From the NCBI RefSeq assembly GCF_024298845.1, contig NZ_CP101156.1:2046001-2110000 (forward strand): a DNA stretch of 64,000 nucleotides, read 5' to 3'. The notes under the pieces were generated by a model that was given only the letters and a program-made list of their open reading frames with translations, did no database searches and was not told where the DNA came from. Both the position numbers and the translations under genes were made by a program. The DNA is from Natronosalvus amylolyticus. GTDB lineage: Archaea > Halobacteriota > Halobacteria > Halobacteriales > Natrialbaceae. Positions 37,572 through 48,712 of the stretch are shown here, one piece after another (within the stretch, counting starts at the first letter, position 1; each line of letters begins with the position of its first letter).

Positions 37572-39539
37572 ATGGGACAGACGCTTACCGAGAAAATTCT
37601 CGAAGATCACCTCGTCGAGGGCGAACTCGAAACTGGCGAGGAGATCGGGATCGAGATCGACCAGGTGCTGACACAGGACACCACGGGAACGATGGTCTGG
37701 CTCCAGTTCGAAGCGATGGGACTGGACGAGGTCCAGACCGAAATCGCGGCCCAGTACTGTGACCACCAGACGTACCAGTTCGACTTCAAAAACACCGACG
37801 ACCACCGTTTCCTGCGTTCTGCTGCCGGCACGTTCGGGGCACACTTCTCTCGCCCCGGTAACGGCATCTGTCACAACGTCCACCGGGAGAACTTCGCCGC
37901 CCCCGGCAAGACGTTGCTCGGCTCCGACAGCCACACCCCAACCCCCGGCGGAATGGGCGAACTCGCCATCGGTGCCGGCGGTATCGACGTCACCGTCGCC
38001 ATGGGTGGCGCACCGTACTACATCGAGATGCCCGAAATCGTCGAGGTCCGCCTCGAGGGCGAACTCCCCGAGTGGGCCACCGCGAAAGACGTCATCCTCG
38101 AGATGCTGCGCCGCCTGTCCGTGAAAGGTGGCGTCGGCAAAATCCTCGAGTACACCGGCCCCGGTGCCGAAACCCTCACCGCGCCCGAGCGAATGACCAT
38201 CACCAACATGGGCACCGAACTCGGCGCAACGACGTCGATTTTCGGTACCGACGAGCAGACCAAAGACTACCTCGAGCGCGTCGGCCGCGGCGACGAGTAC
38301 GTCGAACTCCAGCCCGACGACGACGCCGAGTACGACGACCAGATCGTCGTCGATCTCTCGGACCTCGAGCCGTTGATCGCCGAACCCTCGATGCCCGACA
38401 AGGTCGTCCCCGTCCGCGAGGTCGCCGGCCAGTCCGTCGAACAGGTCATCGTCGGCTCCTGTACCAACGGCGGCTACGAGGACATCCTCCCCGTCGCGAA
38501 GATGCTCGAGGGGCGCGAAACTTCGATGGAAACGGAGACCATCGTCGCACCCGGCTCCAAGCAGGCCTCCGAGATGCTCGCCCGCAAAGGCTGGGTCGCC
38601 GAGATGATGGCCGCCGGCGTCAACTTCTCGGAAGCCACCTGCGGTGCCTGTATCGGTATCGGTCACGTTCCCGCGAGCGATTCCGTCTCGCTGCGAACGT
38701 TCAACCGCAACTTCGAGGGCCGTTCGGGCATCGAAGACGACAACGTCTACCTCTGTTCGCCGGAAGTCGCCGCCGCCGCCGCGCTCAAAGGCGAAATCGT
38801 CGACCCACGAGACCTGGCCGACGAACTCGGCGACCTCGAGGCACCCGGCGTCGAACTCCCCGAGAAGTACGACGGCTCCAAAACCGACCTCATCGCACCG
38901 GACGAGGCCGTCGACGACGAACTCATCAAAGGGCCGAACATCGGCGACGTCCCGATTCGCGACCAGCTCGGCTCCGAGGTCGCCGGCGAAGCACTGCTCA
39001 AGATGGAGGACAACATCACGACCGACCACATCATCCCCGCGACTCAGGACATCCTGATGTACCGGTCGAACGTCCCCAAACTGAGCGAGTTCACGCTCTC
39101 TCGCGTCGACGACACCTTCGCCCAGCGCGCACTCGACGCCGACGGCGGGTTCCTCGTCGCCGGCGAGAACTACGGCCAGGGTTCCTCGCGAGAACACGCC
39201 GCCCTCTGTCCGATGTATCTCGGCATCGAGGCGGTGCTCGCCCAGAGCTTCGCCCGGATCCACCGCGCGAACCTCTTTAACTTCGGAATCGTCCCGCTGA
39301 CCATCGACGAGGACACCTACGACGCGATCGACCAGGGTGACGACCTCGAGATCGTCGACGACGTCTACGAAGCCGTCACGAGCGGTCAGGAAGAATTCAC
39401 CGTCCGCGTCAACGGCGACGAGTACACCGCAACGCTCGACGCCTCCGAGCGAGAACGCGACATTCTCGCTGCCGGCGGCAAACTCGCCTGGACGAAAGCC
39501 CAGGCCGAAGACTCGGGCGCAGCACCTGCCGACGACTGA
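37572..39539 (+). CDS. acnA: Aconitate hydratase
   Basis: 655 residues, the shorter haloarchaeal type rather than the ~890-residue bacterial AcnA. It interconverts citrate and isocitrate in the TCA cycle. [4Fe-4S] ligands appear as VIVGSCTNGGYEDI and SEATCGACIGIGHVP. SDSHTPTPGGMGELAIGAGG marks the substrate region, and the C-terminal swivel domain holds GENYGQGSSREHAALCPMYLG. ATG 37572 is clear. It stands as a single gene. A large antisense open frame is a GC-codon shadow. Confidence 0.95.
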   Translation: MGQTLTEKILEDHLVEGELETGEEIGIEIDQVLTQDTTGTMVWLQFEAMGLDEVQTEIAAQYCDHQTYQFDFKNTDDHRFLRSAAGTFGAHFSRPGNGICHNVHRENFAAPGKTLLGSDSHTPTPGGMGELAIGAGGIDVTVAMGGAPYYIEMPEIVEVRLEGELPEWATAKDVILEMLRRLSVKGGVGKILEYTGPGAETLTAPERMTITNMGTELGATTSIFGTDEQTKDYLERVGRGDEYVELQPDDDAEYDDQIVVDLSDLEPLIAEPSMPDKVVPVREVAGQSVEQVIVGSCTNGGYEDILPVAKMLEGRETSMETETIVAPGSKQASEMLARKGWVAEMMAAGVNFSEATCGACIGIGHVPASDSVSLRTFNRNFEGRSGIEDDNVYLCSPEVAAAAALKGEIVDPRDLADELGDLEAPGVELPEKYDGSKTDLIAPDEAVDDELIKGPNIGDVPIRDQLGSEVAGEALLKMEDNITTDHIIPATQDILMYRSNVPKLSEFTLSRVDDTFAQRALDADGGFLVAGENYGQGSSREHAALCPMYLGIEAVLAQSFARIHRANLFNFGIVPLTIDEDTYDAIDQGDDLEIVDDVYEAVTSGQEEFTVRVNGDEYTATLDASERERDILAAGGKLAWTKAQAEDSGAAPADD

Positions 39540-39557
39540 TCGGATCACCGGCCGAGA

Positions 39558-39563
39558 TTTTTT
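39558..39563 (+). terminator. U-rich stretch after aconitase
   Basis: Six Ts begin 19 bp after the aconitase stop codon, preceded by GC-rich CACCGGCCGAG. T-runs alone can terminate archaeal transcription. Confidence 0.4.
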
Positions 39564-40120
39564 GACGGGGCGATAGACCTGCTCGAGTGTGGGGTACGCT
39601 CTCCGGCCACTCGCGATCACTCTGGTCTGTCGAAGAAAACTGCCTCGAGTGAGTCGGGCGACCCCCCGGAAGCCCGTAATCGAGGCAAGTAACGTCCGGG
39701 AATCCGGCACGCAATCGACGACCACACGTCCCCCAACGTGTCGCCGCCGACGGGCCGATGGGGGCTGAGTTTCGGGCAGGAATGCTGCCACAGGCTCAGC
39801 GCCCATCGACATTCGTGGTACCGCTTCCCATCAATAACGTAGGGCCAGCGCGTCTTAACAGTTCTGCGTACCGACGGGTTCGAAGCGCCTCGAGTGTCCT
39901 ATGCCCAGCACGTTGTCCTCCATGTGGTGAACCGAACGAGTGAGGACACTGTCTCTCGAGGGAGCGCGAGTTCAACTCGAGGAGAATGAACGGCAGCAGC
40001 AAAACTCGAGGTCACCACAACTCTATCGCCGAAACGAACGGTTTCCTCGGTGTCCGTCCCGTCAACCGTCGTTTTACTGCTGCCTCGGGTGTGTGGCTGG
40101 AGGTCAACGGTGTCACTACA
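39564..40120. other. Long gene-free stretch between convergent genes
   Basis: I see no convincing coding region. Short open frames on both strands encode Arg/Ser/Pro-rich peptides unlike haloarchaeal proteins. Several CTCGAG sites and small palindromes occur, but no recognisable transposase remnant, tRNA or rRNA. Confidence 0.5.
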
Positions 40121-40325: not shown

Positions 40326-40790
40326 TTATGACGAACCAGATGTCTCGTCGCACTCGAGGTGGAACGACCGATCGTTTGCCGTCACTTCAGCCGAGTCAGT
40401 TTCTGCGGTGATCGTCACCGTCACCTTGCCACTCGCCGTGCAGTTGGCCTCGAGGGTGTACGTGTGGTCCGCACCGGATTCGAGTGTGCGCTCGAGTTCA
40501 CTTTCGAAATCACCCTCGTCGAATCCCTCGGGTGAATCCTCGAGTTCGATCGTGAGATCGGCCTCGTCACTGAACTGATTGGTGATCTCCAATGTGTCGA
40601 CGGGATCGCCCTCGGTTGCATTGAACTTCTCGCCGACCCCGTCAATTTTGAGGTAGGCCTCGTCATCATCGACGACAGAGATATCTATCGATCGGTCGGC
40701 CGCAAGTCCGCTGAACGCGCCGCTCGCTGTCACGAGCGCAATGACGGCGACCAGACCGACGGCGAGGCTGACGAGTTTCGTCCGATTCAT
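40326..40790 (-). CDS. Small exported beta-rich protein (DUF1102/TasA-like candidate)
   Basis: 154 residues. The hydrophobic N-terminus MNRTKLVSLAVGLVAVIALV is followed by TASGAFSGLAADRSIDISVV, the same SGAFS-x-x-x-[AS]-x-R-[ST] junction as in the proteins at 41721 and 42434. The mature part is acidic and beta-rich (LEITNQFSDEADLTIELED, HTYTLEANCTASGKVTVTITAE). The signal lacks twin arginines, so Sec export is expected. It lies 4 bp downstream of the DUF7344 regulator gene, surely one operon. Function is inferred from the locus: a possible minor surface or fibre subunit. Confidence 0.72.
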   Translation of the reverse strand: MNRTKLVSLAVGLVAVIALVTASGAFSGLAADRSIDISVVDDDEAYLKIDGVGEKFNATEGDPVDTLEITNQFSDEADLTIELEDSPEGFDEGDFESELERTLESGADHTYTLEANCTASGKVTVTITAETDSAEVTANDRSFHLECDETSGSS

Positions 40791-40794
40791 CGAT

Positions 40795-41385
40795 TTACTC
40801 GACCCCCGGTGGCTCGCCACTGATACCGAGGCGATTCCGCCGGGAGTAGTACCGATGTGCCAGCGCCGAGACGGCGAGCGTCACCACGACGAAGATCGTC
40901 CAGGCGGACATCGGGAGCATCGCAAACGGAGCAATCCCCACCGTTGCCCCACCCAGTACGAGCGCGATAACGCCCGTCAGTCCGAGGTAGTAGTCGCTCC
41001 AAGGGAGTTCACGCCCGCGAATGACGTCCATGTAGATTTCGACGTCCTCGAGCGCTTCGGTCGGCTCGACCGTTCCGCGGTCGCTGTTGTAGTCGACGAC
41101 CCCCGATTTGTCCATCTTCGGCAGGTGCGATTGCTGGAGTGCCGTATAGACCCGTTTTCGATCCTTGCTCGAGACTTCCTCGAGTGCGTTGCCGTCCTCC
41201 CAGGCGGCGATCTCCTGTGAGAGCGTCCCGATCTCGAGTGCCTGGTCCTCGCGCATGAGTGCGTGAAGAATGTGCCGTCGACGCTGATTTGCGAGTAGTT
41301 CGAACAGTTCGTCCTCCGAAAGTGTTGTCGTAGCTGATGCTTGTCGCTCACGTCCCCCCAAGGACGTCGCGCTTGCGGTCCCCAT
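40795..41385 (-). CDS. Membrane-anchored DUF7344-type winged-helix regulator
   Basis: 196 residues. The N-terminal winged helix reads LSEDELFELLANQRRRHILHALMREDQALEIGTLSQEIAAWEDG, with the haloarchaeal NQRRRHIL motif quoted in parts as DELFELLANQRRRHIL and LEIGTLSQEIAAWE. VSSKDRKRVYTALQQSHLPKMDKSGVVDYN follows, typical of DUF7344. The C-terminus has two membrane helices (YYLGLTGVIALVLGGATVG and WTIFVVVTLAVSALAHRYY). A membrane-bound transcription factor next to surface-protein genes suggests it senses envelope state. The likely target is the shared 335-bp divergent promoter with AGTCAAC repeats. Confidence 0.85.
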   Translation of the reverse strand: MGTASATSLGGRERQASATTTLSEDELFELLANQRRRHILHALMREDQALEIGTLSQEIAAWEDGNALEEVSSKDRKRVYTALQQSHLPKMDKSGVVDYNSDRGTVEPTEALEDVEIYMDVIRGRELPWSDYYLGLTGVIALVLGGATVGIAPFAMLPMSAWTIFVVVTLAVSALAHRYYSRRNRLGISGEPPGVE

Positions 41386-41720
41386 TACCAGTGGCTATTC
41401 GATGGTAGTGTATTAAATCCTCTGATCAGTCATCCATCCTAACATATTCACCGGTGGAAAATAGCCCCAGAACGGGGTGCAAATTCAGACTTCGGAGAAC
41501 GGACTTCTCGAGGTTCCTGTAACCAGTCAACCCCAGTAATACCGTTCGTTCGTCAGTTTCAGGCACCGGTTTCGGACGTTCCAAGCGGTCCAATACCAGT
41601 ACGTGAGTGTCGTTGACCGACAGTCAACTGTCGGGAGTAGGGAGTCAATTCCCGGATTACAATATGCCTACTGGCGAGTGGTTGACTCGAGTCCCTTAGG
41701 GGGGACCGGTGACAAACGAT
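41386..41720. promoter_or_regulatory. Divergent promoter region with repeated AGTCAAC motifs
   Basis: Five AGTCAAC-like words lie in 165 bp: 41525 (+), 41612 (as GTTGACC), 41622 (+), 41643 (AGTCAAT) and 41681 (as GTTGACT). Two interlock as GTTGAC-CGACA-GTCAAC and CCGACAG-TCAA-CTGTCGG (41612-41634). TATTAAAT around 41412-41419 is placed as the TATA box for the minus-strand regulator gene. Confidence 0.6.
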
Positions 41721-42389
41721 ATGCAACGACGCAAATTCGTAATCGGAATGGGCGCATTGGCATCAGGAACAGCGGCTGCGGTTGGCTCGGGTGCGTTCTC
41801 GGCAGTGTCCGCCGAACGTACCGTGAGTGTCGAAGTTGCCGATGAGGATACAGACGCGCTGTTGGGATTGGAACCGCTCGATACTGATCGAGTAGTTGAT
41901 ACAGGTGAGGGAATCGAAATTGATCTCACTGGCGAAGCTGGTGATGATGACGGTGTTGAACCTAAGGGATTAAACCCGAACGCATCAACCGATTTCACCG
42001 ACCTCTTCAACGTCGTCAATCAGAGTACGAACGACGTTTTGTTCGGCACTTTTGGAGGAATGGATATTAGAGATCAGAATGACGCTATAGATGGATGGTT
42101 CACTTATTCTACTGACGGAGAGCTAACTGAGGACGGAGAGCAGAATGAGGATGTCGATAACGGAGTTGGTACGGGATCCCCAGAGCTCGAAGAAGTCGAC
42201 GGTGGCTCAGGCTATGTAATTCCGGAGGGTGCGACGATAGACGAAGATAACAACGTTCGTTATCTTGAGCCTGGTGAATCGACACCAGTCTCGTTCACCA
42301 TTCAGACTACCAACGAAGATCTTGAAGATTTCGACGAAGAACTCACAATTGCTGCTGTCGGCGTTGGTACTGCACGTGATCAGCGCTAA
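41721..42389 (+). CDS. Tat-exported beta-rich protein, DUF1102/TasA-like (subunit 1)
   Basis: 222 residues. The start MQRRKFVIGMGALASGTAAA carries a twin-arginine motif and hydrophobic core, then GSGAFSAVSAERTVSVEVADEDTD. The mature protein is extremely acidic with FTDLFNVVNQSTNDVLFGTFGG, which matches the F-x-x-x-F-x-x-x-N strand of TasA/camelysin-like and DUF1102 proteins, and YLEPGESTPVSFTIQTTNEDL near the end, a second beta strand. Codon use is less GC-biased than neighbours (many ATT, GAT, AAT), which could indicate transfer or relaxed selection. First gene of a three-gene plus-strand operon. Confidence 0.75.
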   Translation: MQRRKFVIGMGALASGTAAAVGSGAFSAVSAERTVSVEVADEDTDALLGLEPLDTDRVVDTGEGIEIDLTGEAGDDDGVEPKGLNPNASTDFTDLFNVVNQSTNDVLFGTFGGMDIRDQNDAIDGWFTYSTDGELTEDGEQNEDVDNGVGTGSPELEEVDGGSGYVIPEGATIDEDNNVRYLEPGESTPVSFTIQTTNEDLEDFDEELTIAAVGVGTARDQR

Positions 42390-42433
42390 TGGCGACTAAC
42401 TGATACATCACCGAACATAGAGACACCAAAACG

Positions 42434-43003
42434 ATGAAACGACGAGAAGTGCTATTTGGTGTCGCCGGGTTGACAGCGACTGGTATACTCGCCGCCGGTT
42501 CGGGAGCGTTTTCGGCGACGAGTGTCGAGCGCACCGTATCCGTCAGCCTCGCCGAACAGGATTCGGATGCGTTGCTCACACTCGAAGCCACGTCAGATCT
42601 CGCCGAAATCGGTGATAATGACGGATCGCTGTTGATCACAATCGACGAGGAACTCGGAACCGAATCGGCAACAGGAATCAACGCCAACGCAACGTACGTC
42701 TTCAGCGATGTGTTCACCATACAGAATCTGGGCACGCAAACAGTCGAGGTCAAAGGAGAGGCCGGAAAGCTAACCGAGCCGGACGAAACGACTGGACAAG
42801 CAGACGTTGAACCGCCAGATGACGAAGAGCCGGAAATAACGCTTTGGACCGAAGACGGCGGTTCAGGAGACGCACTGAACGAAGAGCTGGATCCCGGCGA
42901 AGACCCAGTATCCGTTTCAGTCAAAGTAGATACGACGAACGTCGACACGGACGGTGATCTGGTTGATGCCAGTTACGTTATCGTCGCTGAAACATCAGAC
43001 TGA
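42434..43003 (+). CDS. Tat-exported beta-rich protein, DUF1102/TasA-like (subunit 2)
   Basis: 189 residues. MKRREVLFGVAGLTATGILA is a twin-arginine signal. It is followed by GSGAFSATSVERTVSVSLAEQDSDALLTLE, the same junction as the preceding gene over about 25 residues, so the two are paralogues diverged mainly in the mature part. Features include YVFSDVFTIQNLGTQTVEVKGE (F-x-x-x-F-x-x-x-N) and ELDPGEDPVSVSVKVDTTNVD. It is acidic with no C-terminal anchor, so either released or polymerised. It lies 44 bp after subunit 1 and 24 bp before the large surface protein. Confidence 0.75.
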   Translation: MKRREVLFGVAGLTATGILAAGSGAFSATSVERTVSVSLAEQDSDALLTLEATSDLAEIGDNDGSLLITIDEELGTESATGINANATYVFSDVFTIQNLGTQTVEVKGEAGKLTEPDETTGQADVEPPDDEEPEITLWTEDGGSGDALNEELDPGEDPVSVSVKVDTTNVDTDGDLVDASYVIVAETSD

Positions 43004-43027
43004 ATCATGGCACAAAATTTAAAATAA

Positions 43028-44593
43028 ATGAACGCTACGCGCGCCGGCGTCATAGTCGCCCTGATCCTGATAGTGGCAATCCCGACTGCAGCTGTCACGA
43101 TCGTCGAAAATAGTTCACAGGACCAGATTTCAGACGATATAGTCGCTCAACCGTCCGAGGGCTCGAACGGCGCGTATGCCTTCATAGATCCTGAAACCGA
43201 CGAACTCGTCATCGATCTCACCGCCAACAACACGGAAATCGAGGGAAGTGGGGTCTCTGTAGAGGCCCTGAGCGGGATCGATGACATCTTCACCCTCACC
43301 TACACGGGCGAAGACTTCGCACAGGTGTGGCTCGAGCACGATTCCGACCACGTTACCTTCTACGACACCAGTGGCGACTCACTCGAGGGACAGGCCAACA
43401 ACGTCACCCTCGAGCACAACGAAACCGTCCACGTTGGTTTCTCAGTCGACACCCGCGAAAGCGACCTCGAGGCAGGCGATATGCTCATCGACTCCATCGA
43501 GATCAACGCCCAGGTGCCCGAAGAAGATGATGACGACGGCCCCGGATTCATCCCCGCACCACCATCACCGCCCGCTGACCCCGACCCACCGGAGGACCCA
43601 CCTGAGGACCCTGACCCCCCAGGACAGCCGCCGATCGATCTCATCGTCGGCCCCGGTGAGCGAACGGCGGCCATCGAGGACATCCCGGCCGACGTCCCAG
43701 TTGACGTGCCCTTCGAGGCGCTGGGAATTGGTGAGTTCGTCACCCTCGAGCGCCTCGAAGTCACCTTTGCCGACGACGGTGACGCAGAGTTCACCGTCCT
43801 CGGGGAAGACGCCCTCGAGGGCGATGGCCAACCGCTGGCCGACGAAAACACCACGAGCGCCATCGGCGAGTTCGAGATCACGGAGACGCCTGATCCCGAC
43901 CGCGTCGAGACGGTCACCTACACGCTCGGCGTCGACCGAAGCTACCTCGAGAGCGAGGGTATCGACACTGACGCCCTCGTGCTCTACCGGCAAGCCGACG
44001 ACGGCAGCAAGTGGGACCCGCTCACCACGACCGTCGTCGAGGAGACCGACGACCAGGTGGTCCTCGAGGCGACCTACGACGGGTTCTCCCGGTACGCACT
44101 GGGGGTCGACCAGGCCGTCTTCACCGTCGAGGACGTGACCGCCGAACCGTCGATCGTGACGGTCAGGGAGTCGACGACGCTCGAGACGACCATCACGAAC
44201 ACCGGCGAGGAAGTCGGGACGTTCGAAACCGAGATCGTCGTCGAGGAGACGGTCATCGACACGGTGACGGTCACCCTCGAGCCGGGCGAATCCGAAACGG
44301 TGGCCACGGAGTACACCACGACGGGCACCGGCTCCTACGAGATCATCGTCGACGGCCAGGTGGAAGCGACGATACTGGTCGAACCGCCGGCGGAAGATCC
44401 GCCGAGCGACGACACGGTCGAAACCGACGACCTGGACGAACTCGACGAGCCGACGGAGGAGCCAGGCGGCTTCGGCGTGCTGGAAATCGGTGGCATCCTG
44501 ATGTTGCTGGTGTTGCTCACCATGGGGCTGTGGGGCTACCGAAACCGCGAACAGCTGCCATCTCGAGGGGACTTTTTCGCCGGTCGAGTGTAG
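43028..44593 (+). CDS. Membrane-anchored surface protein with PGF-pre-PGF-like and CARDB-like domains
   Basis: 521 residues. N-terminal signal or anchor helix VIVALILIVAIPTAAVTIV. Beta-rich domain 1 (about 45-165) has N-glycosylation sequons near N67, N125 and N131. A proline-rich spacer spans 172-202. Next comes a PGF-pre-PGF-like domain (GERTAAIEDIPADVPVDVPF to LVLYRQADDGSKWDPLTTTV), and a CARDB/Ig-like domain (IVTVRESTTLETTITNTGEEVGTF). The C-terminal membrane helix is ILMLLVLLTMGLWGY with a short basic cytoplasmic tail. There is no PGF-CTERM sorting motif. It is likely the anchor or scaffold for the two small proteins encoded just before it. Confidence 0.8.
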   Translation: MNATRAGVIVALILIVAIPTAAVTIVENSSQDQISDDIVAQPSEGSNGAYAFIDPETDELVIDLTANNTEIEGSGVSVEALSGIDDIFTLTYTGEDFAQVWLEHDSDHVTFYDTSGDSLEGQANNVTLEHNETVHVGFSVDTRESDLEAGDMLIDSIEINAQVPEEDDDDGPGFIPAPPSPPADPDPPEDPPEDPDPPGQPPIDLIVGPGERTAAIEDIPADVPVDVPFEALGIGEFVTLERLEVTFADDGDAEFTVLGEDALEGDGQPLADENTTSAIGEFEITETPDPDRVETVTYTLGVDRSYLESEGIDTDALVLYRQADDGSKWDPLTTTVVEETDDQVVLEATYDGFSRYALGVDQAVFTVEDVTAEPSIVTVRESTTLETTITNTGEEVGTFETEIVVEETVIDTVTVTLEPGESETVATEYTTTGTGSYEIIVDGQVEATILVEPPAEDPPSDDTVETDDLDELDEPTEEPGGFGVLEIGGILMLLVLLTMGLWGYRNREQLPSRGDFFAGRV

Positions 44594-44614
44594 TCCACAC
44601 CCGGGCGAGTGGAC
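44593..44614 (+). terminator. Hairpin at the end of the surface-protein operon
   Basis: GTCCAC and GTGGAC pair as a perfect 6-bp stem around a 10-base loop, starting on the last base of the stop codon of the large surface-protein gene. No T-run follows, so confidence is modest. Confidence 0.4.
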
Positions 44615-45190
44615 ACACGCAGCCGGAGAATCGGGTTGCAGGCGCCGACAGGCGAAACCGTGGTGCCGACGGCAATATCCCCGAGTTGGGTGTTTTCGAG
44701 GGTGAATGTATTCGCTCGTGTTCCCCAGTTCGAGCACCCACTGTAAGCGAACGATGAAGCGATCAGACGGGGGTCTGAGATTACTACACAATCACTATCC
44801 AGTGGGTAGCGTAGTTGTAGTAAAGTGTTGACCTTTTCTCATCTCGAGCGACAAACTCGTTCATACACGACTCACGGTTCGACTCGAGTTTCGATACGCA
44901 GACCGACTCGTTCCCTGTAAACGTACAGACGTATTTACAGAAACGAGACGAACGTTCATCCGTACGCGAGCTATCGGTCGTTCGGACGCACACGCTACCT
45001 ACACCGATCCCCCCATCCCCCAACCGATCACCGTCCCCCGTGGGTAGTCGACGAACGCCGATGACTGGCGATGCCGTGGACCGTGCATCCATTTCAACTG
45101 CACAACGCACACGTCAGCCACTCGTCTCGAGTGTGACGTGACACACCACCGTGTCATCCGACGCGCAGGTAACGGGATGGGAACCACCCC
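44615..45190. other. Gene-free region rich in inverted repeats
   Basis: No credible coding sequence lies in these 576 bp. Perfect inverted repeats occur at 44763-44778 (TCAGAC/GTCTGA around GGGG), 44781-44823 (TTACTACA/TGTAGTAA, 27-base spacer), 44915-44940 (CTGTAAA/TTTACAG) and 45139-45156 (TGACAC/GTGTCA around ACCACC). GTTGACC at 44827 resembles the motif in the 41.5-kb promoter. Base composition is lower in GC than the flanks. Confidence 0.55.
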
Positions 45191-46087
45191 ATGTCATACC
45201 CAGGTCCCAAACCCCGTACCGCTGCCGAACGGCCGTTTCTCGAGCGAACGCGACGGAAAGTGCGAGCCCTCGACCTGGCACTCTTGTTCGCTATTCCCGC
45301 CCTGCTGGTGCTGGTCTATGCGCTTCCCGAAGCGTTCAGGGACGAGTTCGTATTGTACTATCTCGAGCCCACGCTGCTGACGGCGTTTGCGTCCCACTTC
45401 GTTCACCTCGAGGCGACACACCTGCTGGCAAACCTCCTGGGGTACGGGCTGCTTGCCGGAGTGGGGTACCTACTGGCGGTGCATGGCAACTGTCGACGCT
45501 TTTTCCTCTCGGCACTGCTGGTTATCGTCCTCGTGTTTCCACTGGTGCTGTCGGGGCTCAACCTCGCAGTGCCACGAAACGCCGTCTCCTATGGCTTTTC
45601 GGGCGTGAACATGGCTCTCCTCGGGTTGTTGCCGCTGGTACTCGGTGAGTATCTCAGAGCGACGTTCACGCCGACACTCGAGCGACGACACGTCGGACTG
45701 GCCTACTTCGTGGCGACGGCGATCATCGCACTCATCGCCGTTCCCATCGCCCTGTCGACGGTCGCCCTGGCGACCACCTCTGTCGGGATCGCTGGCCTGT
45801 ACGCACACGGATTGTTGCAGCGACACTGGCAGCTTCGCCGGCTGGGTCGGGAAATCCTCGAGCGACCGGGCTACGGGGAACTCGCGCTGGGGGGAGGCGT
45901 GGTCTTCGTCTCGTATCTGTTCGTTGCGTTTCCCGCCGACGTGGTGTACGGGACGGCAGTATTGAACATCTACGTGCACTTTCTGGGCTACTCGCTGGGG
46001 TTCATCGGCCCGTATCTGGTGCTCGAGGCTGGGACGTACGACCGGCCGACCAGCCCTCTCAAACCCCCTTCCTCTCCCCGAGCCTGA
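45191..46087 (+). CDS. Rhomboid-family intramembrane serine protease-like protein
   Basis: 298 residues with about seven membrane helices. Rhomboid landmarks are HLEATHLLANLLGYG (H77, N81 for the oxyanion site), the catalytic loop SYGFSGVNMALLG (Ser137 in G-F-S-G) and YVHFLGYSLGF with the partner His263. Spacing between Ser and His is longer than in short bacterial rhomboids because of an extra middle segment (TLERRHVGLAYFVATA). It would cut substrates within or near the membrane. It lies 47 bp before the signal peptidase gene on the same strand, which hints at a joint role in processing exported proteins. Confidence 0.85.
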   Translation: MSYPGPKPRTAAERPFLERTRRKVRALDLALLFAIPALLVLVYALPEAFRDEFVLYYLEPTLLTAFASHFVHLEATHLLANLLGYGLLAGVGYLLAVHGNCRRFFLSALLVIVLVFPLVLSGLNLAVPRNAVSYGFSGVNMALLGLLPLVLGEYLRATFTPTLERRHVGLAYFVATAIIALIAVPIALSTVALATTSVGIAGLYAHGLLQRHWQLRRLGREILERPGYGELALGGGVVFVSYLFVAFPADVVYGTAVLNIYVHFLGYSLGFIGPYLVLEAGTYDRPTSPLKPPSSPRA

Positions 46088-46134
46088 CCGGAACACCCGC
46101 AGTTAAGACGGTGGGGACGTGATACACGTTCGTC

Positions 46135-47289
46135 ATGAGTGAGGGGTGGGTCAGTCGCGGGCTACAGCTACTCGTCGTCGTCGCGATCGTCGCCCTGCTC
46201 GCCGGGCACCTCCTCGGACAACCCGTTCTGTTGGGCTACGTCGAAACCGGAAGTATGGAACCGACGCTCGAGCCCGGGGACGGATTCGTCGCCGTTCCAT
46301 CGGTCGTCGCGAGCGATCCCGAACCGGGCGACGTCGTCGTCTTCGACGCCCAGGAGATCGAGGGTGGCGGATTGACGACGCACCGGATCGTCGACGAACG
46401 ACCCGAGGGGTACGTGACCCAGGGGGACGCCAACCCGTTTACCGACCAGGATGGGGGTGAGCCACCGGTTCAGGACGCCCAGATCGTAGCAACGGTCGCC
46501 CAGCCGACCGGCTCGGTGCTGACGATACCCGCACTCGGAACCGTCGTCATGGCGATCAACGCCCTCTTCGAATGGATTCAGACCTGGATGGCGTCTGCTC
46601 TCGGCTTACAATCCGCTCAGGGGACGACGGGTGCAGCCTACGTCTTGCTCGGTATCTCGCTGGCCGCCTACGCCATCGAAACCGTTCGCGAGCGTCGCCA
46701 ACAGGCACGCGAGTCGCGACTCGGACGAAACAACGAGGAGGGTCTCGATCCGAAACTCCTCTGTGGCGCGTTCGCCCTCATGGTGATGGTCGCCGCACTC
46801 GGGGCGATGGTCGTCCCCGCCGGAACACACTCCTACGACGTGGTCAGTGCGCAGTCGCCCTCCGACCGGCCACTCGTCATCGAACAGGGCGAAACCGAAC
46901 GGATCGATTACCCCGTCGAGAACAGCGGCTTCGTACCCGTCCTGGTCGGCCTCGAGGGTGGAGACGGCGTCAGCGTCGAGGACGAACGGCTGGCACTCGA
47001 GCAACGAGGTTCTGCAGGAACAATGGTTGCGATAACTGCTCCCGCAGATACCGGTGCCTATCAGCGATACGTGACCGAGTATCGGTATCTGTACGTGTTA
47101 CCGTCACCGGTGATCAGCGGGCTCGCATCACTCAATCCCTGGCTCCCGGTGCTCGTCATTACGGGGCTCATGGGTGGCGTAACGTACGGAATCGGCCGAA
47201 TCCTTATCGGCGACACGCCAGCACAACGGCGGTCGAAAACAGGAAGACGGGACACACACGCACAGCGAAGTGATTATAACCAATGGTAG
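46135..47289 (+). CDS. S26B signal peptidase with C-terminal extracellular domain
   Basis: 384 residues, far longer than ordinary archaeal signal peptidases. The catalytic part matches SEC11/SipW-type enzymes: S40 (VETGSMEPTLEPGD), H83 (TTHRIVDE, His replacing the bacterial Lys) and D98 (VTQGDANPFTDQDGG). After residue 130 come two more membrane helices (AAYVLLGISLAAYAIETV, LLCGAFALMVMVAALGAMVV), an Ig-like extracytoplasmic domain (VIEQGETERIDYPVENSGFVPVLVGL), a last helix (LPVLVITGLMGGVTYGIGRIL) and a basic tail. In this locus it is likely the dedicated peptidase for the small exported proteins. A TTAAG element about 30 bp upstream may be its own promoter. Confidence 0.88.
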   Translation: MSEGWVSRGLQLLVVVAIVALLAGHLLGQPVLLGYVETGSMEPTLEPGDGFVAVPSVVASDPEPGDVVVFDAQEIEGGGLTTHRIVDERPEGYVTQGDANPFTDQDGGEPPVQDAQIVATVAQPTGSVLTIPALGTVVMAINALFEWIQTWMASALGLQSAQGTTGAAYVLLGISLAAYAIETVRERRQQARESRLGRNNEEGLDPKLLCGAFALMVMVAALGAMVVPAGTHSYDVVSAQSPSDRPLVIEQGETERIDYPVENSGFVPVLVGLEGGDGVSVEDERLALEQRGSAGTMVAITAPADTGAYQRYVTEYRYLYVLPSPVISGLASLNPWLPVLVITGLMGGVTYGIGRILIGDTPAQRRSKTGRRDTHAQRSDYNQW

Positions 47290-47419
47290 TTACGACAAAC
47301 ACACATGAACGGTGGCGACGGTGGGTGGCAATGACTCGAGCCACGGTGTGGAAAACGGTTGGAGGGGACGTACCGGTTCGACAGACGAGTGGCAACCATC
47401 GTCGGGGTGAGTGCTGACG

Positions 47420-48712
47420 ATGGACACCCAACGCCTCCGGGTTCGACGCAACCTCGCCTCCTACCGATGGCTCGTTATCGGCATCTGTCTACTCGCCGTG
47501 GTCGGCGGTGCCTGGGTTACCTACGGCACCTACGTGGACCCTGGTGAGGAAGCGCACCAACAACTCGAGGATTCGTGGACGACGACGGGCGTCCTGACAC
47601 ACAGCGCCGTGGTCGAGGCGGAGAACACGGTGTATCCGGTCGGCTCACGGCTCTCGAATCAGCCGCTGTATTACACGCGACTCTCACCAACACTCGAGGG
47701 CGAGTTCGACGCCGGCTATCGGGGAACCACTGGCGACGACGTGAGTGTCGACCTCGAAGTAACCTTGCGCTGGGAGTCGAGCGACGACGAGCACACCTAC
47801 TGGCGGGAGACGGAAACCCTTGCAACTGCCAGCGAGAGTGGCCTCGACCCCGACGAGAGCGCGACGGCAGCGTTCGAGTTCAACGTCAGCGAAATCGAGA
47901 ACCGTATGGATGCCATCGAATCAGATCTCGGCGCGAGTCCGGGCGACCGACAGGTTGTCCTCGAGATCGAACGCGAAATCGAGGGGACGGTAGACGGCAC
48001 CCAACGGTCGACGACCGAGACGACCACGATCGACGTCGACCTCGACGGGAACACCTACTCGCTCACCGAAGACGGGAGCTTCGGCGAAACCTACGAACAG
48101 TACGAGACGGTTACCCAGACACGGACCTACGGCCTCGAACGGCGTGCCGGTGGCCCACTGCTCGCACTCGTGGGACTGGTCGGTGCGATAGGATTGACGG
48201 TCGTTCCCCCGAGTCGCTACGAGTTATCGCCCGCGGAAGCCGAATGGCTCGCCTATCGGGAAACGCTCGAGGAACAGGGTTCACTTGTGACGCGGACGCG
48301 ACTCCCCGCCGACGACGCCACAGAACCTACGCCAGGCGACGATACCACTGAAATGGGACGAAAGCAGCAAGCCCCACTCGAGAGCCTGGAAGCGGCGATT
48401 CAGTTGGCAATCGACCTCGAAGCGCCGATTCTCGAGGATGTCGACCGGGATCGGTACGTCGTGCTCACCGACGACCTGTGGTACGTGTACGAACCCCCGT
48501 CGCCGCCACACGAAGGTGGACAGACGAACGCCCTGGATGGGGGTCGTGACGACGCACCCGAACCGGCGGACTCCGGGACAGTTACTTCGTTCGACGAATC
48601 GATTCCCGACGCGGCCACGAGAACCAAAGAGAGTGACGGCAAGACGAATGAGTCACCCAAAGAAACCGGCGAATCAGACCCGAAAACGGAAACTGTGACA
48701 GACAGGAAGTGA
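47420..48712 (+). CDS. DUF5305 membrane protein
   Basis: 430 residues. An N-terminal membrane helix (WLVIGICLLAVVGGAWVTY) is followed by an extracellular beta-rich DUF5305 domain (SWTTTGVLTHSAVVEAENTVYPVG to YSLTEDGSFGETYEQYET) and a second helix (GGPLLALVGLVGAIGLTVV). A cytoplasmic acidic tail then contains SLEAAIQLAIDLEAPILEDVDRDRYVVLTDDLWYVYEP, a short conserved-looking module. DUF5305 genes regularly accompany this kind of long signal peptidase in haloarchaea to my knowledge. The role is unknown, possibly assembly or anchoring. ATG 47420 is preferred over GTG 47411. Confidence 0.83.
   Translation: MDTQRLRVRRNLASYRWLVIGICLLAVVGGAWVTYGTYVDPGEEAHQQLEDSWTTTGVLTHSAVVEAENTVYPVGSRLSNQPLYYTRLSPTLEGEFDAGYRGTTGDDVSVDLEVTLRWESSDDEHTYWRETETLATASESGLDPDESATAAFEFNVSEIENRMDAIESDLGASPGDRQVVLEIEREIEGTVDGTQRSTTETTTIDVDLDGNTYSLTEDGSFGETYEQYETVTQTRTYGLERRAGGPLLALVGLVGAIGLTVVPPSRYELSPAEAEWLAYRETLEEQGSLVTRTRLPADDATEPTPGDDTTEMGRKQQAPLESLEAAIQLAIDLEAPILEDVDRDRYVVLTDDLWYVYEPPSPPHEGGQTNALDGGRDDAPEPADSGTVTSFDESIPDAATRTKESDGKTNESPKETGESDPKTETVTDRK

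Follow-up and report, generated by a model that had tools for sequence, protein, structure and literature searches.

A diverged Tat-fimbria-type locus in Natronosalvus amylolyticus with a predicted rhombosortase-like module and a possibly exchanged subunit cassette

The window analysed here is a 64,000-nucleotide stretch of the 4.2 Mb genome of the haloarchaeon Natronosalvus amylolyticus (contig NZ_CP101156.1, forward-strand positions 2,046,001 to 2,110,000), and its positions 40326-48712 hold a cluster of genes for exported and membrane proteins that appears to be a diverged locus of the twin-arginine-translocation (Tat) fimbria, or tafi, type. On the minus strand lie the gene of a small exported protein in the TafC position (40326-40820), with a Sec-type signal ending in GA↓FS (the arrow marks the predicted cut), and, overlapping it, that of a conserved neighbour, a winged-helix-like membrane regulator of the DUF7344 family (40795-41385; Pfam 5e-29) with two C-terminal membrane helices by hydropathy. 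The plus strand codes for two predicted Tat-exported fimbrial subunits, one of 222 residues (41721-42389, with an alternative GTG start at 41709; signal peptide about 41721-41795) and one of 189 residues (42434-43003; signal peptide about 42434-42508), both with the predicted cut GSGA↓FS; a TafF-like membrane-anchored scaffold of 521 residues (43028-44593); a rhomboid intramembrane serine protease (45191-46087); a long archaeal S26B signal peptidase (46135-47289); and a DUF5305 membrane protein (47411-48712; Pfam 5.4e-45) with two membrane helices and, probably, an extracellular middle domain and a cytosolic tail. Proteins are named below by their first coordinate.

An earlier note on this DNA had named these open reading frames, all of which are present at their coordinates, and its gene set (DUF7344, DUF5305, S26B, DUF1102, rhomboid) is borne out by Pfam and NCBIfam, the rhomboid being divergent. 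The SGAFS-type motif that it reported is found in the translations of all three small proteins (SGAFSGLAADRSI, SGAFSAVSAERTV, SGAFSATSVERTV), where it occupies residues 23-27 provided that 40326 begins at its probable start, ATG 40790 (154 residues). The two twin-arginine signals are there as well, with MQRRKFV and MKRREVL at the start of the two Tat proteins, and 40326 (MNRTKLV) is without one; Tat export of 41721 and 42434 is strongly predicted. The F-x-x-x-F-x-x-x-N strands described for all three proteins hold for 41721 and 42434 (FTDLFNVVN and FSDVFTIQN) and fit 40326 only loosely.

Tat-fimbriae were reported in 2025 (Galeva et al., iScience 28:111793, as cited in PMC12687288), and the details of the system used here are those given by NCBIfam, by PDB titles and by that citing paper. 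The NCBIfam models are NF052520 (TafA), NF052521 (TafC), NF052522 (TafE), and NF052523 (TafF). Specifically, 41721 matches TafE at 1e-17 (64.4 bits against a cut-off of 155) and TafA at 5e-11, 42434 matches TafE at 9e-13 (48.4 bits against 155), and 40326 gives sub-threshold matches to TafC (1.8e-8, 33.9 bits against 410) and TafE (3.7e-7). In the PDB, 9p0a, entitled “Structure of Natrinema sp. J7-2 Tafi pilus”, provides the sole significant chain for 41721 (3.2e-11) and 42434 (7.4e-7), and a profile of the subunit family reaches it at 1.1e-30. Moreover, TafF is matched by homologues of the 43028 scaffold (1e-15 and 2e-10), and in two comparison loci, L137 and L138, proteins above the curated cut-offs for TafA, TafC and TafE stand beside a long S26B and a DUF7344 gene; DUF5305 is adjacent in L138 and was not found within the 19 kb of L137. 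Because of the TafE, TafA and TafC matches, the homology to 9p0a, and the neighbourhoods of L137 and L138, the locus is grouped with Tat-fimbriae: judged from its sequence, it works like them and by synteny belongs with them as a diverged branch. The matches of 41721 to TafE and 9p0a, and a gene set that recurs in dozens of genomes, put the locus far beyond chance. The core of the earlier proposal, a TasA/DUF1102-like fibre locus with Tat-exported subunits and its own S26B peptidase, is thus upheld by homology, fold and gene set, and the fibre class itself is already known, having been described in 2025, given NCBIfam models and solved as structure 9p0a.

For the model that AlphaFold2 gives of 42434 (mean pLDDT 69.8, pTM 0.63), the nearest fold is that of Pyrobaculum bundling pili (7ueg; Foldseek E 6e-4, Z 7.9), followed by that of the Tafi pilus 9p0a (Z 7.8); chaperone-usher pilins and other beta sandwiches rank lower. 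A Z near 8 is weak alone, but the fold match gains from the two top rows, which are archaeal filament subunits, one of them a sequence homologue; TasA is absent among the fold matches listed for 42434, an absence that excludes nothing. Instead of filaments, the Tat proteins might build a matrix or a coat layer, or act singly as surface adhesins. This would be in keeping with a locus read here from its genes and with subunits that stand far from the curated Taf families, yet such non-filamentous roles are very unlikely for proteins whose family profile matches the Tafi pilus at 1e-30 and whose nearest folds are two filament-forming proteins. As for the end of the signal, G, A and F are near-invariant in the subunit-family alignment, and the modelled part of 9p0a_C, 188 residues with 215 as the last, starts at Phe28 of GTGA↓FS if it has no gaps; the near-invariant residues and this modelled range, on the assumption of a continuous chain, support a cut at GA↓FS. 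A Tat subunit-like protein of another locus of the genome (L024:6358-6864) has GTGSYD replacing GSGAFS at the predicted cut, a natural variant of the motif.

The model of 40326 (mean pLDDT 74) matches generic Ig, PapD-like, and MSP sandwiches, and 7ueg, 9p0a and TasA are absent among the fold matches listed for it. A TasA-type fold was considered for this protein and is unsupported, since the model is Ig/PapD-like among those matches. Neither of the outcomes that the earlier note would have taken as refuting arose for the two Tat proteins, the model of 42434 being nearest to the bundling pili and the tafi pilus; for 40326, the matches listed give no prediction of a TasA-type jelly roll. The 40326 gene overlaps the DUF7344 gene, as the TafC gene does in L138, and the protein contains two cysteines (Cys127 and Cys157, numbered from GTG 40820), with none in the Tat subunits; it may be a Sec-exported, possibly disulphide-bonded accessory protein.

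The peptidase 46135 matches TIGR02228 above the cut-off (55.8 bits, 4.8e-15; cut-off 51.85) and scores 30.6 bits against the SipW model NF046067, below the cut-off of 190. It is 41-42% identical to three paralogues encoded in like loci of the same genome, and Ser40, His83, Asp98 and Asp104 are invariant in all four. In loci of this kind the long S26B peptidases also have an extra, conserved, membrane-flanked beta domain (residues ~230-335 of 46135) outside the signal peptidase models. In linkage counts from 61 relatives, a long S26B gene is found no more than 5 kb from 74 of 82 DUF5305 genes (conversely, 74 of 81) and no more than 12 kb from 85 of the 101 TafE-profile matches that were compared; the set, for which the earlier note had proposed a search, travels together, and its homologues are not scattered without the peptidase. 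The gene order recurs across named Halobacteria, with the TafC-like and DUF7344 genes divergent from the Tat subunits, the scaffold, a rhomboid or none, the S26B peptidase, and DUF5305. There are four tafi-type loci in the genome, each with a long S26B, DUF5305 and Tat subunits; the three further ones lie at 165001-185000 (L024), 2550001-2568000 (L025) and 2796001-2815000 (L026), and L026 codes for five subunit-like proteins of up to 581 residues.

The scaffold 43028 combines an N-terminal DUF1102 head (2e-5, above cut-off) with CARDB (1.7e-7) and PGF-pre-PGF (TIGR04213, 1.5e-8) domains and ends with a candidate sorting-type signal, EEPGGFGV (44456-44479, plus strand), followed by a C-terminal membrane helix (~44474-44530) and basic residues. 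After the scaffold gene comes that of the rhomboid 45191, which holds a GFSG motif with Ser137, His263, and also His72, His77 and Asn81; the GxSG serine, His263 and the helix-2 histidines are conserved across full-length rhomboid relatives. The Pfam rhomboid model gives 12.5 bits on 45191, below its cut-off, and the sole curated NCBIfam match, a weak one, is to the rhombosortase model TIGR03902, which is the best NCBIfam match for 10/10 rhomboid homologues, all below the cut-off.

Scaffold tails beside a rhomboid gene follow the pattern E-[EA]-P-[GSA]-G-[FIL]-[GDE]-[LVIP], helix, arginines, and such a tail is present in 17 of 19 scaffolds with a local rhomboid versus three of 12 without one (p 5e-4, uncorrected for phylogeny). 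For loci chosen by their S26B gene, tail and rhomboid sort as 13/4/3/53, and the training set had included many of these positives. A tail profile built from 15 scaffolds and run against 8,795 open reading frames gave 37 further matches at E<=1e-4. Of these, 33 are encoded immediately 5' of a rhomboid gene and 35 fall within a locus that has one; the two exceptions include a window fragment. Since the loci added for this search were picked for having a rhomboid, its informative part is that the tail adjoins the rhomboid and is nearly absent from loci without one. The sharpest comparison is between genomes: the three tailed scaffolds without a local rhomboid (L061, L062, L119) belong to genomes that carry the rhomboid elsewhere, nine comparison genomes have no rhomboid of this family, and the family occurs in 125 of the 391 genomes of the class. 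No such tail was found beside distant rhomboids (~30% identity), so that the pairing is limited to the close rhomboid family. The earlier note had listed the rhomboid as a member of the locus; it is one, and the view of an incidental neighbour gives way to a pairing with the scaffold tail signal, which is probably rhombosortase-like, with cleavage predicted.

The tail could instead be a variant PGF-CTERM signal for the archaeosortase ArtA, with the rhomboid serving another target in quality control or regulation. The tail does have the same tripartite layout and G-F, and 43028 holds the PGF-pre-PGF domain, a family whose name derives from its link with PGF-CTERM proteins; however, no PGF-CTERM model was matched at E up to 10 by ten scaffolds (NCBIfam) or seven (Pfam), the tail tracks the rhomboid both locally and at the genome level, and many tails lack PGF (PSGIDL, PAGLGL, IGGFEV), all of which leaves the ArtA alternative doubtful and favours the rhomboid as the partner of the tail. 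Tails of the EEPGGF type also occur on giant surface proteins of ~1,900-2,000 residues encoded beside a rhomboid gene (L214:6979-12990, L217:209-5818, L197:7269-12941), which have a DUF1102/Taf-like profile match. In Halobacterium sp. TGN-42-S1 (L236), the flanks of the unlinked rhomboid gene hold two DUF7344 genes and no scaffold gene.

Natronosalvus hydrolyticus AArc-curdl1 is the closest named relative at the locus, and alignment to its syntenic locus delimits a replaced cassette at 41809-43282: the DNA on either side is 90-95% identical, as far as 41809 and again beyond 43282, and between these positions homology is undetectable. At the protein level, the signal peptide of 41721 is identical (27/27 residues), the mature parts of both Tat subunits share 28% identity, and the N-terminal part of 43028 is likewise diverged; the S26B peptidase (95% identical), the rhomboid and DUF5305 are conserved at 95-97%. 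The same kind of change, with identity lost at the signal peptide or within it, recurs in a second locus of the genome (L025/L145) and in Natrialba (L067/L077), with a more rearranged case in Natronomonas (L129/L133). In other pairs the subunits are kept, among them the remaining two loci of the genome (92-100%; L026/L143 and L024/L144). Mature identities in close pairs are largely bimodal, ~91-100% or 26-41% with one pair at 71%, a distribution that favours an exchange of subunit alleles, perhaps through recombination in the conserved signal-peptide region. Very fast divergence of the subunits under selection would agree with the rapid evolution of surface-exposed proteins and with the diverged N-terminal part of 43028, but it is unlikely in view of the sharp boundary at the end of the signal peptide, the 90-95% identical flanks, and the largely bimodal identities, and allele exchange is preferred. 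That every species pair represents a replacement is rejected, as L066/L070 is a gained subunit and L026/L143 and L024/L144 are conserved. A mobile-element or plasmid origin of the cassette is also rejected, since it has no plasmid match and no DNA-level donor among 125 family genomes and the window contains no tRNA. In L066:6687-8138, an extra Tat subunit gene is inserted together with a duplicate of the upstream region and of the signal peptide, which suggests tandem subunit gain. Outside the cassette, the interval that separates the aconitase-like gene (37572-39539) from the locus (window 39543-39635) is ~1.3-1.4 kb longer in N. hydrolyticus.

From the homology, synteny, Tat motifs, catalytic residues, rhomboid-tail pairing, and cassette boundaries, the following mechanism is proposed. 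The acidic beta-sandwich subunits 41721 and 42434 would be exported by Tat and, likely, cut by the S26B peptidase 46135 at the predicted site GSGA↓FS, after which they would assemble into thin filaments on the cell surface, probably with the freed N-terminal strand of each subunit donated to its neighbour, a mode of assembly that is likely by homology to the bundling pili, TasA (PMC9674648) and the Tafi pilus. The scaffold 43028, whose filament-like N-terminal DUF1102 head is borne by a long stalk and which is anchored in the membrane at its C terminus, is the likely base of the fibre. The rhomboid 45191 would probably recognise its EEPGGFGV-helix-basic tail and cleave it in or beside the membrane, which would release or re-anchor the fibre base in a rhombosortase-like manner. 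DUF5305 as a membrane assembly or regulatory partner, DUF7344 as a regulator and 40326 as the TafC-position accessory protein are guesses from position. Lastly, the subunit genes are probably swapped as a cassette between close relatives, with the machinery kept fixed.

Taken as a whole, this explanation, a tafi-type fibre locus with a rhomboid acting on the 43028 tail and an exchanged subunit cassette, is held with high confidence, and several findings have to be set against it. No window protein reaches the curated cut-offs for TafA, TafC, TafE or TafF, which leaves room for a different structure of the assembled fibre. For 42434 the model is of moderate quality, with a Z little above that of unrelated beta sandwiches, and as a single-chain model, with residues 1-28 at pLDDT <50, it does not place the N-terminal strand in a groove. 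The rhomboid 45191 scores 20.1 bits against the 84-bit cut-off of TIGR03902, to which the ordinary rhomboids of the genome, with GlpG as their best match, are also weakly similar, and the rhomboid-tail statistics are uncorrected for phylogeny. Moreover, many tafi-type loci are without a rhomboid, which is thus not essential to fibre formation.

The analysis extends a known fimbria class to a diverged branch, with four such loci in one genome. We lean, with some reserve, towards a dedicated sorting system of Halobacteria, an archaeal counterpart of rhombosortase, in which a catalytically intact rhomboid family would cleave the EEP-[GSA]-G-[FIL]-[GDE]/helix/arginine tail of fimbria anchors and of some giant proteins of the surface, combined with a subunit cassette exchange at the signal-peptide junction that would give antigenic-type variation; no description of the rhomboid-tail pairing in archaea or of the subunit cassette variation was found in the literature searched. 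The native substrates of archaeal rhomboid proteases have been described as awaiting identification (PMC11985538), and a tail that predicts the rhomboid even when unlinked offers a concrete, testable prediction of a substrate and suggests that C-terminal sorting is not the work of ArtA alone. The diversification of the Tat-fimbria surface by allele swapping, with the export machinery kept, would bear on adhesion and virus recognition.

Among known systems, Tat-fimbriae are the nearest, and the locus is provisionally classed from its sequence as tafi-type with a rhombosortase-like module. It shares with them the Tat signals, the GA↓F signal end, DUF1102/TasA-like subunits, TafC- and TafF-like partners, and S26B and DUF7344 neighbours, usually with DUF5305; it differs in that all window members fall below the curated cut-offs, in the extra rhomboid with its matching scaffold tail, and in a TafC-position protein of 154 residues, without a Tat signal, against a model of 373 positions. 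The Pyrobaculum bundling pili give the best Foldseek match and the best Z for 42434, at 9-12% identity over the structural alignments. TasA, a donor-strand fibre (PMC9674648), is likewise part of a system, Bacillus TasA/SipW/TapA, in which the fibre subunit is served by its own S26B-type peptidase and carries an aromatic residue immediately past the cut, whereas the window S26B scores far below the SipW cut-off and TasA is not among the fold matches listed. As in the bacterial rhombosortase/GlyGly-CTERM system (PMC3237569, PMC6219818), a rhomboid goes with a tripartite C-terminal signal of Gly-rich motif, helix and basic residues, both as a cis neighbour and in genome-level co-occurrence; the window system differs in its EEP-[GSA]-G-[FIL]-[GDE] motif, its archaeal host, a model score far below the cut-off, and a ratio of, seemingly, one rhomboid to one substrate or a few.

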